A DNA stretch of 64,000 nucleotides, taken from Mesonia phycicola. Its GTDB lineage: Bacteria > Bacteroidota > Bacteroidia > Flavobacteriales > Flavobacteriaceae. Positions 35,718-42,514 of the stretch are shown here, in pieces. Positions within the stretch are counted from its first letter, which is position 1, and each line of letters begins with the position of its first letter. Under the pieces are notes generated by a model that saw only the letters and a program-made list of their open reading frames with translations, was not told the DNA's origin and did not search any database. The DNA lies in the NCBI RefSeq assembly GCF_900141885.1, contig NZ_FQYY01000002.1, positions 310,001 through 374,000 of the forward strand. The letters run 5' to 3'. The position numbers and the translations under genes are program-made.

Positions 35718-37499
35718 ATGACTGAAATTAAAAGACTATTCGATTTCCCATATTATCAGTTAGAAAAATTCAATTTAAAACAGTCTCTTGTAACTAAATA
35801 TAACGGAGAGTGGATTGGTACTTCTACTAAAGAATACATAGCTAAAGCTAACAAAATAAGTAGAGCTTTACTTAGAATGGGAGTCAACCCCAATGATAAA
35901 ATTGCCATTATCTCTACTTCTAATAGAACAGAGTGGAATATTATGGACATTGGTATCTTACAAATAGGTGCTCAAGATGTACCTGTTTACCCTACCATTT
36001 CTGAAGATGAGTACGCTTATGTACTCAATCACAGTGAATCTAAATATTGTTTTGTCTCAGACAAAGAAGTTTTAGACAAGGTTAATAAAATAAAAGATAA
36101 AGTACCAAGCCTCATAGATGTTTATACTTTTGATGAAATTGACAATGCTAAAAACTGGAATGAAGTTTTACAGCTTGGTGAAGACGATAGTAACCAAGAA
36201 CAGGTAGAACAAATAAAAGATTCTATTACAGAAGACGACTTAGCTACAATTATTTACACCTCTGGTACAACTGGAAGACCAAAAGGTGTGATGCTTTCTC
36301 ATAAAAACATTACTAGTAACGCATTAAATAGTTCTACAAGATTACCTTTAAAAGAAGGTAGTAATGTAGCTATTAGCTTTTTACCTATATGTCATATATA
36401 TGAACGAATGCTTTTGTATATGTACCAATATGCTGGTGTAAGTATTTATTTTGCAGAGTCTATAGATAAAATAAGTGACAACCTTAAAGAAGTTAGACCT
36501 CACGTGATGTCTGCAGTACCAAGACTTCTAGAAAAAGTTTACGATAAAATTATTGCAAAAGGTGCAGAATTAACTGGAGTAAAGAAAAAACTTTTCTATT
36601 GGGCAGTAGAACTAGGTTTAGAATGGGAACCTTATGGCCAAAACGGCTGGTGGTACGAGTTTAAACTAGGTATTGCTAGAAAATTAATATTTAGCAAATG
36701 GCAAGAAGCATTAGGAGGTAGACTAAATGTAATCGCTTCTGGTAGTGCTGCACTACAACCTAGACTAGCCAGAATTTATAATGCTGCAAATATAGGTGTT
36801 ATGGAAGGTTACGGATTAACAGAAACTTCACCTGTTATCGGGGTAAACGATATGAGAAATGGCGGCTTTAAAGTTGGCACCGTTGGAAAACCCTTACCAG
36901 AAACCAATATTAAAATTGCCGAAGACGGAGAAATTTTAATTCAAGGTCCGCAAGTAATGATTGGTTATTATAAAGACGAAGAAAAAACAAAAGAAGTTCT
37001 AACCGAAGATAGATATTTTCATACGGGAGACATTGGAGAAATAGATTCAGAAGGTTTCTTAAAAATTACAGACCGTAAAAAAGAAATGTTCAAAACATCT
37101 GGTGGTAAGTATGTAGCGCCTCAAATAATTGAAAATTCTATGAAACAATCTCGTTTTATAGAACAAATTATGGTTATTGGTGAAGGTCAAAAAATGCCAG
37201 CAGCTTTTATTCAACCTAATTTTGAATTTATTCAAGATTGGGCAAAGCTTAAAAAGATTGACATAGGCTCTACTAATAAAGAAATGATAAAAAATCAAGA
37301 TGTTATAAATAGAATACAAAAAGAAGTAGACTTTTATAATGAAAAATTTGGAAAATGGGAGCGTATAAAACAATTTAGACTAACTCCAGAAGTTTGGTCT
37401 GTAGAAGAAGGCCACCTCACTCCTACTATGAAAATTAAACGTAAAGTGATTAAAGAAATTTATAAAGACCTCTTTAAAGACATTTACGGAACTTATTAA
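35718..37499 (+). CDS. fadD: Long-chain fatty acid-CoA ligase
   Basis: 593 aa from the ATG at 35718. An in-frame TTG 27 nt upstream is possible but has no better context. ANL-superfamily enzyme that activates fatty acids to acyl-CoA. Seen: the P-loop TIIYTSGTTGRPKGVMLSHKN (about 180-200), SFLPICHIYERM, the adenylation motif GYGLTETSPVIG, YFHTGDIGEID, and KEMFKTSGGKYVAPQIIE at the C-terminal hinge. Membrane association is likely. It heads a beta-oxidation locus that resumes at marR 4.5 kb downstream. Its last 27 codons, stop codon and terminator are repeated there. Confidence 0.92.
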   Translation: MTEIKRLFDFPYYQLEKFNLKQSLVTKYNGEWIGTSTKEYIAKANKISRALLRMGVNPNDKIAIISTSNRTEWNIMDIGILQIGAQDVPVYPTISEDEYAYVLNHSESKYCFVSDKEVLDKVNKIKDKVPSLIDVYTFDEIDNAKNWNEVLQLGEDDSNQEQVEQIKDSITEDDLATIIYTSGTTGRPKGVMLSHKNITSNALNSSTRLPLKEGSNVAISFLPICHIYERMLLYMYQYAGVSIYFAESIDKISDNLKEVRPHVMSAVPRLLEKVYDKIIAKGAELTGVKKKLFYWAVELGLEWEPYGQNGWWYEFKLGIARKLIFSKWQEALGGRLNVIASGSAALQPRLARIYNAANIGVMEGYGLTETSPVIGVNDMRNGGFKVGTVGKPLPETNIKIAEDGEILIQGPQVMIGYYKDEEKTKEVLTEDRYFHTGDIGEIDSEGFLKITDRKKEMFKTSGGKYVAPQIIENSMKQSRFIEQIMVIGEGQKMPAAFIQPNFEFIQDWAKLKKIDIGSTNKEMIKNQDVINRIQKEVDFYNEKFGKWERIKQFRLTPEVWSVEEGHLTPTMKIKRKVIKEIYKDLFKDIYGTY

Positions 37500-37566
37500 A
37501 ATAACATTAATCATATTCATAAAAAAAACTCCTCAATTTTGAGGAGTTTTTTTTATGAATATAATT
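37419..37566 (+). repeat. Direct repeat, left copy (fadD 3' end plus terminator)
   Basis: The first 91 bases match 41846-41936 with a single T/C difference (synonymous, TTT versus TTC). Similarity resumes in the terminator hairpin and in the TTTTATGAATATnATT after it. This copy is part of the intact fadD gene. Confidence 0.9.
37523..37554 (+). terminator. Intrinsic terminator of fadD
   Basis: Stem AAAACTCCTCAA / TTGAGGAGTTTT with a 2-nt TT loop; long A and T tracts on both sides. It can also terminate the convergent DUF3857 transcript. Confidence 0.88.
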
Positions 37567-37582
37567 TATATCAAAAGTATAT

Positions 37583-39784
37583 TTATATTTTTTCAAATAA
37601 AACTTTCTGTTTATTAAAGTCTAATGAAGCGTCTAAAACTTCAAGTAATTGATTCCAGTTTTCTTTCTCTATAAAACTTTTTTTATACGTTTTTTTAGTA
37701 GTTATAATTAACTGATTACCTTGTATTTTACTAGTACTAACAAACTCAGCATATAAATTAGATTTATTTATAGCTAGTTTCTCTACTCCTAATACTTTAT
37801 AACCTTGCGGTATCTCTACAATTATTTCACTAGCGTAAGAGCGAGGAAAATTCATATATACATTTAGCTCTCTATCTCTTTCATTTTTATCTAAAGTAAT
37901 TTGATCACCATTAAGTTTTCCTACTTCAAAGATAAAATTAGGTCCTGCTTTTTTTATTAAATCATTTTCTACTGTAAAATGGCATTTATATTTTAGAAAT
38001 GATGAATCACTTTTTCTACCAGTATCTAAAATTTCTGTATTTTGATCTTTAATAGTAAACTGATAACTATTATTTAAGCGATCTAGCATATAATCTTCTC
38101 TTTTCTTTTTTATTTTATCAAGAAAAGCATCATACTTTTCACGGTGACGAGTTCTTTTTTTATTGGACAATATCCTTTCGAAATAATTTGGGTTATTAAA
38201 GCGTTTATTATCCTCTTCTACATAATCGAAAAAGTATAGTAAATTTTCTTGTTGAGTTGATTTTAAATGTCCCTTATATACATTTTCTGTATCAAGATTA
38301 ATTGTTGAAAAATTATCTTCAAAAGAAACTGACATGCTTTCAAGTGAACTATTCTCATTAGCTTTGCTTTCTGGAATTGTTAACTTATAAATATCAGATA
38401 TTTCCTTTTTTTTATTATCGTAAGGAAGGGCATAAACTTCAGTGTTTTCTAAAAAAGGAGAATTTGCCGTTAATGTAGAAAACTTATCATAATAAGAGAT
38501 GTATATAGGTTTCTCAAAATTAATTTTTAATAATAACTCTACTTCATCTATTGAAATTAACTCCTCAACACCTCCTTTAAACTTAGGCATAGCAACCAAT
38601 AATTCAAATGGTATTTCGTTTGCACTCAAAAAACCTGCAAAATCTAAACAAAATTTAAATTGGTTATTTAATGTACTTGGTACTAATATTCTACCTCCCA
38701 CTTTTTGATAATAGTAATCAAATGGGCTTAAGGTGTTTTTTACATCTAATTTTGATATAATTGTTGGTTGTATATATTGTGTTAATACAAAATGCCTTAA
38801 AAAATAATATGTTTCTTCTACCTGTTCTTCTTTAGACAAAGTCTTCCCTTTTAAATACTTTTTTGAAAACTTTTTTAGATGTTTAGAAATTTTAAGTTTA
38901 CGATATCTATTAGGATAACTAAAAAAATTCAATACATCTTCTTGGGTGACTGTAGATTTCACCTCTTTTATATCTTTAGATAAAAAATTATGATAAGCAT
39001 TATCTGCATTATTAACACTCAAACCATAAGTTAATTGAAACTTATAAAAGGGTAATTCTACTTGAGGGTAAAACCACATAGGAAAATCATTCTTTTCTAT
39101 ATCATGAGCTACAAATACATATTTTCTTTCCTTTCTTTTTTTTGTTTCTACCTCTTCTATTTCTGGCGCTCCATTATAAGTTCCAAAATTTAGAAAAAAA
39201 TCTTTCGTGGTTTTAAGTTCAAAAACATATTGTTTACATGGGTAGTAATCACTTAATATTTCTGTATTTACATCAAATAAAAAAACATCACTCTTAAATT
39301 CTTCTGTTTTGTAAGCAAAATAATCTATAATATCCCCAACCTCTAAACCTGGTATAGCTATTTTGTATTCGTCTTTATCATTTTTAATTGCTTCCTCTTC
39401 TATAGAGATTATTTTTTCTTCTTTAGAAGGTTTAATTATTTTTATACCAAGAACTTGATTTCCTCCTTTATCAAAAAAACCTTTACTGACTTTAAAAGAT
39501 TTCACAAAATTAAATTCTGAAAACTCCTCTACAGCAGCCTTGTCAAGTAATTTAATTCTTTTATGTATTGATTTGGTATACCTAACTCGCTTTCCCGGTT
39601 CTTCATAACCATAGTTATATTCTTGAAACAGTATTACAGCAGATTCGTTTCTCCATTTATCAGGGATATCAAGATTATCTGCTTGAGAACCATCCCAAAA
39701 TTTCTGTGCTATTTTTTCATCTTGTGCAGATGCTATTGATATTTTTAAAAAAAATATTAAAAGTAAATAAGTAATTTTTTTCAT
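37583..39784 (-). CDS. DUF3857-family secreted protein with degenerate transglutaminase-like domain
   Basis: 733 aa, signal peptide (1-20, IASAQ). Layout as in DUF3857/transglutaminase-like proteins: N-terminal beta-sandwich (about 30-270, with RVRYTKSIHKRIKLLDKAAVEEF and LEVGDIIDYFAYKTE), a helical transglutaminase-like core (about 290-470) and a C-terminal beta domain ending in DASLDFNKQKVLFEKI. In the core Cys379 (FKFCLDFAGFL) lines up with the catalytic Cys of the neighbour, but no matching His or Asp is evident (YISYYDKF stands where LDPTEKF is expected), so it is probably inactive. The ATG overlaps the stop codon of the upstream DUF3857 gene by 4 bp. Second gene of the cassette bracketed by the fadD-end repeats. 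Confidence 0.75.
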   Translation of the reverse strand: MKKITYLLLIFFLKISIASAQDEKIAQKFWDGSQADNLDIPDKWRNESAVILFQEYNYGYEEPGKRVRYTKSIHKRIKLLDKAAVEEFSEFNFVKSFKVSKGFFDKGGNQVLGIKIIKPSKEEKIISIEEEAIKNDKDEYKIAIPGLEVGDIIDYFAYKTEEFKSDVFLFDVNTEILSDYYPCKQYVFELKTTKDFFLNFGTYNGAPEIEEVETKKRKERKYVFVAHDIEKNDFPMWFYPQVELPFYKFQLTYGLSVNNADNAYHNFLSKDIKEVKSTVTQEDVLNFFSYPNRYRKLKISKHLKKFSKKYLKGKTLSKEEQVEETYYFLRHFVLTQYIQPTIISKLDVKNTLSPFDYYYQKVGGRILVPSTLNNQFKFCLDFAGFLSANEIPFELLVAMPKFKGGVEELISIDEVELLLKINFEKPIYISYYDKFSTLTANSPFLENTEVYALPYDNKKKEISDIYKLTIPESKANENSSLESMSVSFEDNFSTINLDTENVYKGHLKSTQQENLLYFFDYVEEDNKRFNNPNYFERILSNKKRTRHREKYDAFLDKIKKKREDYMLDRLNNSYQFTIKDQNTEILDTGRKSDSSFLKYKCHFTVENDLIKKAGPNFIFEVGKLNGDQITLDKNERDRELNVYMNFPRSYASEIIVEIPQGYKVLGVEKLAINKSNLYAEFVSTSKIQGNQLIITTKKTYKKSFIEKENWNQLLEVLDASLDFNKQKVLFEKI

Positions 39785-41688
39785 GCTTTTTGTAAAATAA
39801 TTTGTTGGTTTAAGAAATTATTAATGGTTTTTATTTTTGTATTCCAATCTGGAAGTTCTTCTTTAGTTATTACTTCATTTAGAATTTGTATTTTTTGAGT
39901 ACAAATTAATGACTGGTCTACTTTCTCTACACTTATGTCTATTTTAAAATTTTTGGTTTCAAAGTGTATTGGTTCCATTATTTTAGATGTTTTAAATCCA
40001 CTTATATCTATGTAAGCTTTAGATTCTATTATTTTTTTATGAGAAAAAACAAAATCTGATTTTCTATCTTCCATTAATAAATCTGAAAAATTATCATTAA
40101 AACGAATATCTATGTAAGTTTTATCTCCAAATGAAGAAACCTTACCTTCAACCAATAAATCATAATCAATATTAATATCTTGCTCTCTATTTTTTAAATC
40201 TGAAGATTCTATATTATTAACTTGCATTAATGAACTCCCTTGTTCTAAAAAGCTTGTAAGAAAATCTTCTTTTTGGTGTGTTTGTAAACTATTCAAAAAT
40301 GCTAAAATTTGTTTTCTACTTTCTCCTGAATAATGATTGTTTGCCTTGCCCACTAAAACGTCATCTACAATTTTTAAATAATATTCCTTTTTTTCTATAC
40401 TTTCTTCTGCTTTTGAAACAGGCACAGTTTTTAATTTAAAGTTTTCTCCATCTTCAATTAGTGCTTGTTTACCTTGAATTCTATTCGCAAATTCTTTGTA
40501 AGGATTGAATTTTTCTGTAGGATCTAAAAAAATTGGTATATCAGAGTCCATTATAGTACAAATCATATGGTTATCTACCGCTAAATTAGGAGTAGAATAA
40601 TCATAAGCAATATGATTGGTTCCTATCCAGGTTAGTCTAGCATCAACCCCTATTTCGCTTAGCATGGCTTTAGCTAAATTAGCCATCCCTTTACAATCAC
40701 CATAGCGTTTAGAAAATACCTCGCTAGCATTATCTGGTTGAAAACCTGCTATACCATCTTCAAAAGCTATGTATCTAATATTATCTTGAATCCAATAAAA
40801 TATTTTTTTTATTTTTTCTTCTTTACTAGTTAAGTCTTTTGTTAGCTCTTCAACTTTACTTACATAAGGCTTATTGGTATAATCTAGTTTATCTACTAAG
40901 TTTTTATACCATTGGTATTGATCTTTTAAAGTTGCAAAAATTTTTTCTTCTTCTCCTTTATCGGTATAACTTATAGGTAAAATCATTATGTGTGGATACA
41001 AATAACTTGGACCTCTAGAATTTTTTTCCTTAAACATAGAAGGCAAATTAAATGCCTTATAGGTATAAATAGTATTTTCATCTTCTTTTTCAACTTGGCT
41101 TTCTATTTCATATCCTTCAAAATTAAATTCTTGAAATTTTATATTTAACCAATTAGGAACCACTATTTTTATTTCTTTTTCTTTAATAGGGTAATCATCA
41201 TTAAAATAAATAGTTGTGAAGTATTTTATATCTGAAAAAATCTTATCTATATACACTTGGTACTCAAAACCTTGAAGAGGAAAATCTAATTCAACGTATT
41301 TTAAGCGTGTATCAGTATGAAATAAATCATTATCCTCATAAGCAACATCGTTAATTGTAAAATTAGCAGAATGATTATTGCTAAAACTTATATCAAAATT
41401 CTTTATTGTCGATTCTCCATTATAAAAAACATGCCTATTACTATAAGTTTTTGAATCGATATTAATCAATTTTTCATAAGACTCTAAGGTAGCAGATACA
41501 TTGTCTCTTTTTAAACTAAAATCTACATTTAAATTACTTTTTTCAATTACTAACTCTTCATCTGGATATTCAATTTTTAGCTTTTTAGCTAATTCTATTA
41601 CAGACTCTTCAGGTTTTTTATGTTTTTGTGAGTGCACCACTACAAAGGAAAACAGTAAAATAATTGAGGTAATTTTTTTTAAATCCAT
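39781..41688 (-). CDS. DUF3857 and transglutaminase-like domain secreted protein
   Basis: 635 aa with signal peptide (about 1-20, ending VVVHSQ). N-terminal DUF3857 beta domain (about 25-260), then a transglutaminase core (about 275-400) with a complete Cys-His-Asp triad: RYGDCKGMANL (Cys332), DNHMICTIM (His374) and FLDPTEKF (Asp389). A C-terminal DUF3858-like beta domain ends the protein. It may act as a periplasmic protease or cross-linker; no member of this arrangement has a function I can cite. It leads a two-gene operon (4-bp overlap) with its degenerate relative. Both are minus-strand genes within an otherwise plus-strand beta-oxidation locus. Confidence 0.82.
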   Translation of the reverse strand: MDLKKITSIILLFSFVVVHSQKHKKPEESVIELAKKLKIEYPDEELVIEKSNLNVDFSLKRDNVSATLESYEKLINIDSKTYSNRHVFYNGESTIKNFDISFSNNHSANFTINDVAYEDNDLFHTDTRLKYVELDFPLQGFEYQVYIDKIFSDIKYFTTIYFNDDYPIKEKEIKIVVPNWLNIKFQEFNFEGYEIESQVEKEDENTIYTYKAFNLPSMFKEKNSRGPSYLYPHIMILPISYTDKGEEEKIFATLKDQYQWYKNLVDKLDYTNKPYVSKVEELTKDLTSKEEKIKKIFYWIQDNIRYIAFEDGIAGFQPDNASEVFSKRYGDCKGMANLAKAMLSEIGVDARLTWIGTNHIAYDYSTPNLAVDNHMICTIMDSDIPIFLDPTEKFNPYKEFANRIQGKQALIEDGENFKLKTVPVSKAEESIEKKEYYLKIVDDVLVGKANNHYSGESRKQILAFLNSLQTHQKEDFLTSFLEQGSSLMQVNNIESSDLKNREQDINIDYDLLVEGKVSSFGDKTYIDIRFNDNFSDLLMEDRKSDFVFSHKKIIESKAYIDISGFKTSKIMEPIHFETKNFKIDISVEKVDQSLICTQKIQILNEVITKEELPDWNTKIKTINNFLNQQIILQKA

Positions 41689-41845
41689 TTTAAATTGATA
41701 TCAAACATTTAAGTGTATAAAAAAACAAAAAAAAACTATAAAATTACATTAAAACAGATACTTTTCGTAAATATTTATGTATTTAAACTTATTTTAAACA
41801 ATGTTAGATCCTAAATACTGTGTTTTTATCATTATATTAATAGTT

Positions 41846-41926
41846 ACTCCTACTATGAAAATTAAACGTAAAGTGATTAAAGAAATTTATAAAGACCTCT
41901 TCAAAGACATTTACGGAACTTATTAA
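41846..41926 (+). pseudogene. Orphan 3' fragment of fadD
   Basis: In-frame remnant of the last 26 codons plus stop of fadD (TPTMKIKRKVIKE..., then DLFKDIYGTY), without any upstream part of the gene. It is not expressed as a protein by itself. Confidence 0.88.
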
Positions 41927-41946
41927 AATAACATTATCTTATTGTT

Positions 41947-41974
41947 AAACTCCTCAAAATTGAGGAGTTTTTTT
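41947..41974 (+). terminator. Orphan terminator duplicated with the fadD tail
   Basis: Stem AAACTCCTCAA / TTGAGGAGTTT with a T run. No gene ends here, so it now only insulates marR. Confidence 0.7.
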
Positions 41975-42039
41975 ATGAATATGATTAAATTCATAAATAA
42001 AATTACACTCTTTACTATGCGTGCATAATATTTTTTTAT

Positions 42040-42064: not shown

Positions 42065-42514
42065 ATGAGAGAAAAAACAATAGATTACGTATTAAGAGCT
42101 ACTTGGATTGCCGTAGCCAAAATGTATAATGAAGAAGCAAGCAAAAAAGGTAGCACTATGGCTACAGGTTTTGCTTTATTAAATATAGATCCAGATGAAG
42201 GCACTCCATCTACTTCACTAGGTCCTAAAATGGGTATGGAAGCAACAAGTCTTTCTAGAACCTTAAAAACGATGGAAGGTAAAGGATTAATTGAAAGAAA
42301 AAAAAATCCGGAAGACGGTAGAAGCGTTCTCATTCAACTTACAGAATACGGACGTGAAATGAGAGCTTTCTCTAAAGGTGTAGTTTTAAAGTTTGATGAT
42401 GCCGTAAAAGAAACTATTCCTGAAGAAGACATCAAAACATTTATAGATGTAGCAAACACTATGATGGAATTAATTAACAACAAAAAAATTTATAAACAAG
42501 ACCTAACAAAATGA
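42065..42514 (+). CDS. MarR-family transcription regulator of the beta-oxidation operon
   Basis: 149 aa. Helical dimerisation ends and a winged helix-turn-helix (about 45-105): GPKMGMEATSLSRTLKTMEGKGLIERKKNPEDGRSVLIQLTEYG, containing the MarR wing signature DGR. The last 4 bases overlap the start of the hydroxyacyl-CoA dehydrogenase gene (ATGA), so regulator and enzymes share one mRNA. By analogy it would repress the operon until a fatty acid or acyl-CoA binds. No palindromic operator was recognised upstream. Confidence 0.88.
   Translation: MREKTIDYVLRATWIAVAKMYNEEASKKGSTMATGFALLNIDPDEGTPSTSLGPKMGMEATSLSRTLKTMEGKGLIERKKNPEDGRSVLIQLTEYGREMRAFSKGVVLKFDDAVKETIPEEDIKTFIDVANTMMELINNKKIYKQDLTK

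Follow-up and report, generated by a model that had tools for sequence, protein, structure and literature searches.

A duplicated fadD 3' end flanks a two-gene insert between fadD and marR in Mesonia phycicola

How a pair of genes comes to stand between two conserved neighbours, with a second copy of the end of one neighbour on its far side, is the question raised by the fadD-marR locus of Mesonia phycicola. The window analysed here is a stretch of 64,000 nucleotides from this bacterium (NCBI RefSeq assembly GCF_900141885.1, contig NZ_FQYY01000002.1, positions 310,001 to 374,000), whose genome is designated G000, while G001 to G015 denote the other genomes of the genus. An initial annotation had described the 3' end of fadD as duplicated around a two-gene cassette and had suggested either integration at a gene end or a duplication-mediated insertion.

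Layout of the locus

The duplication was borne out. The two copies (Table 1) lie 4427 nt apart, and their single mismatch, T at 37475 and C at 41902, is synonymous. The likeness runs on, less exactly, through the downstream hairpin (148 alignment columns, 90.5%). Only two families of direct repeats of at least 45 nt occur in the whole window, both belonging to the fadD-tail duplication. When the 43 contigs of the genome were searched with a 301-base query (E <= 0.001), four matches were returned, namely both tails and two inverted matches to the terminators, and no further fadD tail was found elsewhere in the genome. The right copy is indeed an orphan tail with a terminator next to marR: codons 568-593 and the stop are present, the remainder of the gene is absent, and the sequence 5' of 41846 holds no fadD remnant scoring above shuffled sequences. 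Between the copies no ORF of at least 90 aa was found other than the two minus-strand genes A and B. The flanking genes, annotated as parts of one beta-oxidation pathway, were recognised by Pfam as an AMP-binding acyl-CoA ligase, a MarR regulator and a 3HCDH/ECH fusion, beyond which lie what we take to be a thiolase and then an acyl-CoA dehydrogenase. An origin of the repeat in faulty assembly is barely credible: the genome is in 43 contigs, but one base and the terminators distinguish the two copies, the region is internal to a contig of 417 kb, and two other species carry orphan tails of their own.

Table 1. Coordinates of the features of the fadD-marR locus within the window
Feature	Position	Strand	Evidence
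fadD, intact acyl-CoA ligase, 593 aa, upstream of the insert	35718..37499	+	AMP-binding 245 bits
Left repeat copy, fadD end and 10 nt past the stop	37419..37509	+	90/91 bases identical to 41846-41936
Left terminator, near-perfect 64-nt palindrome	37506..37569		-29.4 and -37.6 kcal/mol, z -11.0 and -11.8
Insert gene B, DUF3857 protein, 733 aa	37583..39784	-	Pfam DUF3857 34.9 bits, cut-off 24.6
Insert gene A, transglutaminase-like/DUF3857-like protein, 635 aa	39781..41688	-	Transglut_core 39.1 bits, cut-off 23
Right repeat copy, orphan fadD tail (codons 568-593, stop, 10 nt)	41846..41936	+	
Native-type fadD terminator adjoining marR	41947..41974	+	resembles terminators of empty-site G012, G004, G010
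marR-family regulator, usual downstream neighbour of fadD	42065..42514	+	Pfam

The right-hand tail, terminator and flank resemble a native junction. In all five genomes compared (G012, G004, G010, G003 and G009), the fadD-marR gap aligns better with the sequence between the orphan stop and marR than with the left intergenic stretch, an outcome that is favoured by the left stretch entering gene B. A native-like terminator, read by eye, adjoins marR behind the insert in G002 and G014 as well. The 81-nt coding tails of G000 differ at 1 site, against 9-16 differences from them over 60 nt in five other species, which marks the duplication, or the last round of homogenisation, as recent.

The downstream hairpins had been annotated as alike, a description that holds only in part. 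The left one is a palindrome with 31-nt arms and the right one a terminator with a 10-pair stem. The left hairpin contains a 43-nt segment equal to the inverted complement of 41947-41988 with one base extra, and when read on the minus strand it resembles the native fadD terminator with its flank. On the strength of this likeness it could serve as a bidirectional terminator for fadD and the convergent gene B. In quasipalindrome template switching, as summarised in the available excerpts of two reports (PMC7202029, PMC8794818), one arm of an imperfect hairpin is replaced by the complement of the other and the loop is inverted. The left palindrome fits such a switch in the duplicated terminator. 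It departs from the cases in those excerpts in that here a terminator would become two-sided beside a convergent gene, as judged from sequence only.

The match of gene A to DUF3857 falls just below the cut-off (23.8 against 24.6 bits). Its Cys332, His374 and Asp389 are invariant in four aligned sequences and may form a catalytic triad. Pfam recognised no integrase, transposase or other recombinase in the insert, in agreement with the annotation; a PHROGs search with the gene pair gave nothing useful, and no literature treating DUF3857 together with transglutaminase was found. Composition is undecisive as to a recent foreign import: at 26.4% the GC content of the insert is the lowest of 34 CDS compared (the next being 26.6%), yet its GC3 and codon use lie inside the range of the other CDS.

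The pair is a conserved unit elsewhere. Among the best 80 of 552 confirmed relatives, gene B follows gene A in 79 loci and the exception stops at a contig end. None of fadD, marR, fadJ, thiolase, acyl-CoA dehydrogenase or purL matched beside the pair in these best 80 loci at 1e-8, and relaxing the threshold to 1e-3 added just four weak fadD matches (24-26% identity). Neighbours vary, and the view of them is limited in loci shorter than 15 kb; among the 65 of the best 80 that measure at least 15 kb, the commonest neighbour cluster occurs in 22. An ancestral neighbourhood of the pair was set aside, and in these 80 other loci the pair lies elsewhere than between fadD and marR. The cargo is a common gene pair, and the functional weight of the finding is small.

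Filled and empty sites

Both fadD and marR are present in all 16 genomes of the genus, G000 included, and the fadD frame is open in 15. In the remaining one, G010, the frame is broken by one TAA and the match is split at residues 1-532 and 535-590. The empty site with a single tail, whose presence in relatives had been put forward as the mark of an insertion, was found: in ten of the 16 (G001, G003, G004, G005, G006, G009, G010, G011, G012 and G013) no more than 500 bp separate fadD from marR, and the interval in G000 is therefore the filled version of a commonly empty site. Six intervals are filled or broken. G000 and G008 hold the DUF3857 pair, G002 and G014 an ECF-sigma operon with a DUF285-type protein, and G007 a DUF285-type protein, while in G015 very large ORFs, one of 2350 aa, follow fadD. 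In G014 and G015 marR sits on another contig, so that neither interval is seen in full and the neighbourhood in G015 may be rearranged. A close relative of the cassette occurs within the genus in G008 only; in the remaining 14, matches to gene A are absent or do not exceed 33% identity. It can be observed separately that the DUF285-type proteins near fadD-marR recur with 56-75% identity (L068 5829-7301 in G002, L181 9877-11316 in G014 and L077 2390-3826 in G007).

Among 78 genomes of other genera (18 and 60, the latter hand-picked from the upper matches of a fadD C-terminus search across 299 genomes and leaning to nearer relatives), the distance from fadD to marR is at most 750 bp in 53 and exceeds 1 kb in 15, and in 10 no marR was in range. 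None of the 78 genomes carries the DUF3857 pair here. Cargo between the two genes is varied, occurring in the six genomes of the genus and in 15 of other genera. A Pfam scan covered 40 ORFs of at least 90 aa from 18 filled sites, one of the ORFs being the G014 orphan tail, and no recombinase was among the 25 families listed of 51; these sites comprised three of the genus, G015 not among them, and 15 of the 25 in other genera that are filled or marR-distant, the ten marR-distant ones falling outside the scan. In this genus the fadD-marR gap is best read as a hotspot of gene gain in which no mobile element is recognised.

Orphan tails and the entry of the cargo

Self-comparison of each interval revealed orphan fadD tails in G000, G008 and G014, which amounts to three of the six filled and none of the ten empty genomes of the genus. 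None was found in the 78 genomes of other genera, 25 of them with filled or marR-distant sites, up to about 8-10 kb downstream; the contrast between the filled sites of the genus and the filled or distant sites of other genera gave p = 0.004 in a Fisher test, for a comparison picked post hoc. The tails start at fadD codon 568 in G000 (81 nt), at about codon 511 in G008 (roughly 250 nt) and at about codon 430 in G014 (505 nt, with other cargo). The G008 value is a bound, since this tail has decayed through an internal deletion and a stop. Each orphan is nearest to the fadD of its own genome, with a score of 180 against 100 for the next in G000, scores of 65 against 26 and 89 against 53 in G008, and an identity of 93.7% against 88.4% to G002 in G014. 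Upstream of the orphans of G000 and G008 the flanks align no better than shuffled sequences. The cassette was not seen apart from such a repeat in the genus, G008 as its only other carrier having its own decayed one. Several shorter or different matches were set aside as not being orphan tails: those of 21 nt in G012, 30 nt in G007 and 16 nt in G163, a repeat of 171 nt inside the large G015 genes, and a tandem full-length fadD in G018.

Integrative elements are known whose attachment sites restore the tail of a gene at its 3' end, as are cis-mobilizable elements, and integration at gene ends classically leaves an intact gene to one side and a tail to the other. The locus shares this pattern, and nine Phage_integrase matches exist in the G000 genome, none of them within the window. 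It is nevertheless improbable that an integrase, since lost or acting in trans upon a cis-mobilizable or decayed island, brought in the pair by site-specific integration at the end of fadD. Elements of this kind differ from the locus in having a recombinase and a constant core, neither of which was recognised at the insert; the tails of 81, roughly 250 (decayed) and 505 nt are very different in length, and because they have no common start a fixed att site or constant integrase core is rejected. At the 25 filled or marR-distant sites examined outside the genus, no orphan tail was seen either. Of the interpretation first offered, insertion into an empty site is supported and duplication-mediated insertion fits in a loose sense, while site-specific integration at a gene end is not supported.

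Beyond its orphan tail G014 has, at the end of a contig, degraded sequence (L067 1-720) that resembles an IS256-type transposase. A rearrangement brought about by an insertion sequence or transposon that has since gone could draw on this observation. Three fragments of that sequence had no Pfam match at E <= 10, however, the insert of G000 contains no ORFs of at least 90 aa besides the gene pair, and target duplications of insertion sequences are short, which makes such an origin very improbable.

The occurrence of a homologous cassette at the same place in G000 and G008 bears upon the number of entries. A single insertion before these lineages split may have been lost elsewhere by RecA recombination between the tails, restoring the empty site, with the surviving tails homogenised by gene conversion; we consider this unlikely, though by no means negligible. 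Gene A of G000 and that of G008 are sisters with an SH-aLRT of 100 in a tree of 82 rows, for which the program warned that the join of the pair with Neptunitalea may be false. Divergence is likewise not far from that permitted by the core distance, as G000 and G008 share 60% identity in A and 52% in B at 88% in fadJ, compared with 68% and 69% for G020 and G021, also at 88% in fadJ. Direct repeats would, moreover, ease clean loss. Against this, each orphan tail carries the C-terminal sequence of its own species, with the G000 pair differing at 1 of 91 positions, and the orphans of G000 and G008 start at different codons with upstream flanks no better than shuffles. In a concatenated tree of four proteins (17 rows, excluding G010, G014 and G015, with 7 of 14 inner branches well supported) G008 groups with the empty-site genomes G005 and G011, and G000 stands outside G002, G004 and G012. 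From these placements a single insertion needs two or three losses, a count that hangs on weakly supported branches, in addition to gene conversion of the tails. Two insertions, on the other hand, would need the same cargo to arrive twice at one spot. We lean to the view that the tails arose by recent, separate duplications; the cargo pair of G000 and G008 may have entered once or twice.

Route of insertion and related systems

The evidence somewhat favours an insertion into a hotspot poor in mobile elements by homology-assisted or illegitimate recombination, accompanied by partial duplication of fadD. On this reading, recombination without site specificity would have completed either the arrival of the two-gene unit or a subsequent exchange with a relative that had none. 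The joins would have been staggered, one falling just past the fadD terminator and the other about 145 bp upstream of that point, at codon 568 of fadD, and would thereby have duplicated the tail and terminator and left fadD whole. A template switch at the hairpin, in the same event or afterwards, would then have rendered the left terminator palindromic and usable by both convergent genes. Likely routes are homology-facilitated illegitimate recombination (HFIR) of incoming linear DNA and the entry, by a single crossover, of a circle with a fadD tail, which are indistinguishable here because both yield one final structure. Both junctions in G000 touch fadD-terminator sequence, and the searches produced neither a donor for the insert nor a breakpoint sequence pointing to a route. 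From a foreign donor the intact fadD would be expected to have received a donor-like tail; as both tails look native, the donor would need to be conspecific, the crossover to have fallen at the very end, or gene conversion to have followed. The homologous cassette at the same place in G008 speaks against this reading, being unexpected from two chance insertions. DprA and ComEC domains are encoded in G000; they are found in 11 and 10 of 14 control genomes also, and competence is therefore not shown by them. A Ku homologue was found in one of the 16 genomes of the genus only (G011:C44:170484-171020), and Ku-dependent end joining is unlikely since none was found in G000.

The tail-flanked cassette may alternatively be a mobile unit free of any recombinase, in which recombination between the fadD tails frees a 4.4-kb circle with A, B and one tail that re-enters the fadD end of a relative by a single crossover. 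We give this little credence. If true, the fadD tail would be an attachment site based on homology, which would explain the same cargo at the same spot in G000 and G008.

Insertion by recombination that is not site-specific, as preferred here, has counterparts, and the event in G000 is of a known kind. In the portions available of two reports, HFIR is proposed for effector-immunity arrays of the T6SS and for Rhs 3' ends, with one-sided homology and displaced 3' ends (PMC5361080, PMC3240628). As described there, new genes stand behind a conserved stretch, the old 3' end has moved downstream and no integrase is invoked. HFIR operates without a site-specific recombinase or fixed core, and here, too, tail starts are variable and no recombinase was recognised in the insert genes. 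Unlike the arrays and Rhs ends in those portions, the displaced tail of G000 is almost identical to the intact one and is therefore a duplication rather than a replaced variant tail, and the cargo does not consist of toxin-immunity genes. Hotspots between core genes are reported without mobile elements, and many bacterial hotspots without integrases, in the part available of another study (PMC5635113). The locus resembles these in having variable cargo between two conserved genes and no recognised mobility gene; those described in that part are within species, whereas here different species are compared and the locus has a gene-tail repeat in addition. Illegitimate recombination is, according to the excerpt of a further report (PMC2884548), a source of small variable segments, 10-18% of which are flanked by repeats. 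Literature on partial duplication and islands offered, in its titles and the beginnings of its abstracts, no description of such an arrangement.

The manner in which hotspots without integrases are filled is seldom visible. In this genus, duplicates of the species' own fadD tail, differing in length in three species and standing beside empty sites, make the route testable. The locus also provides a small case in which a one-way terminator may have been turned into a two-way terminator beside a convergent gene.
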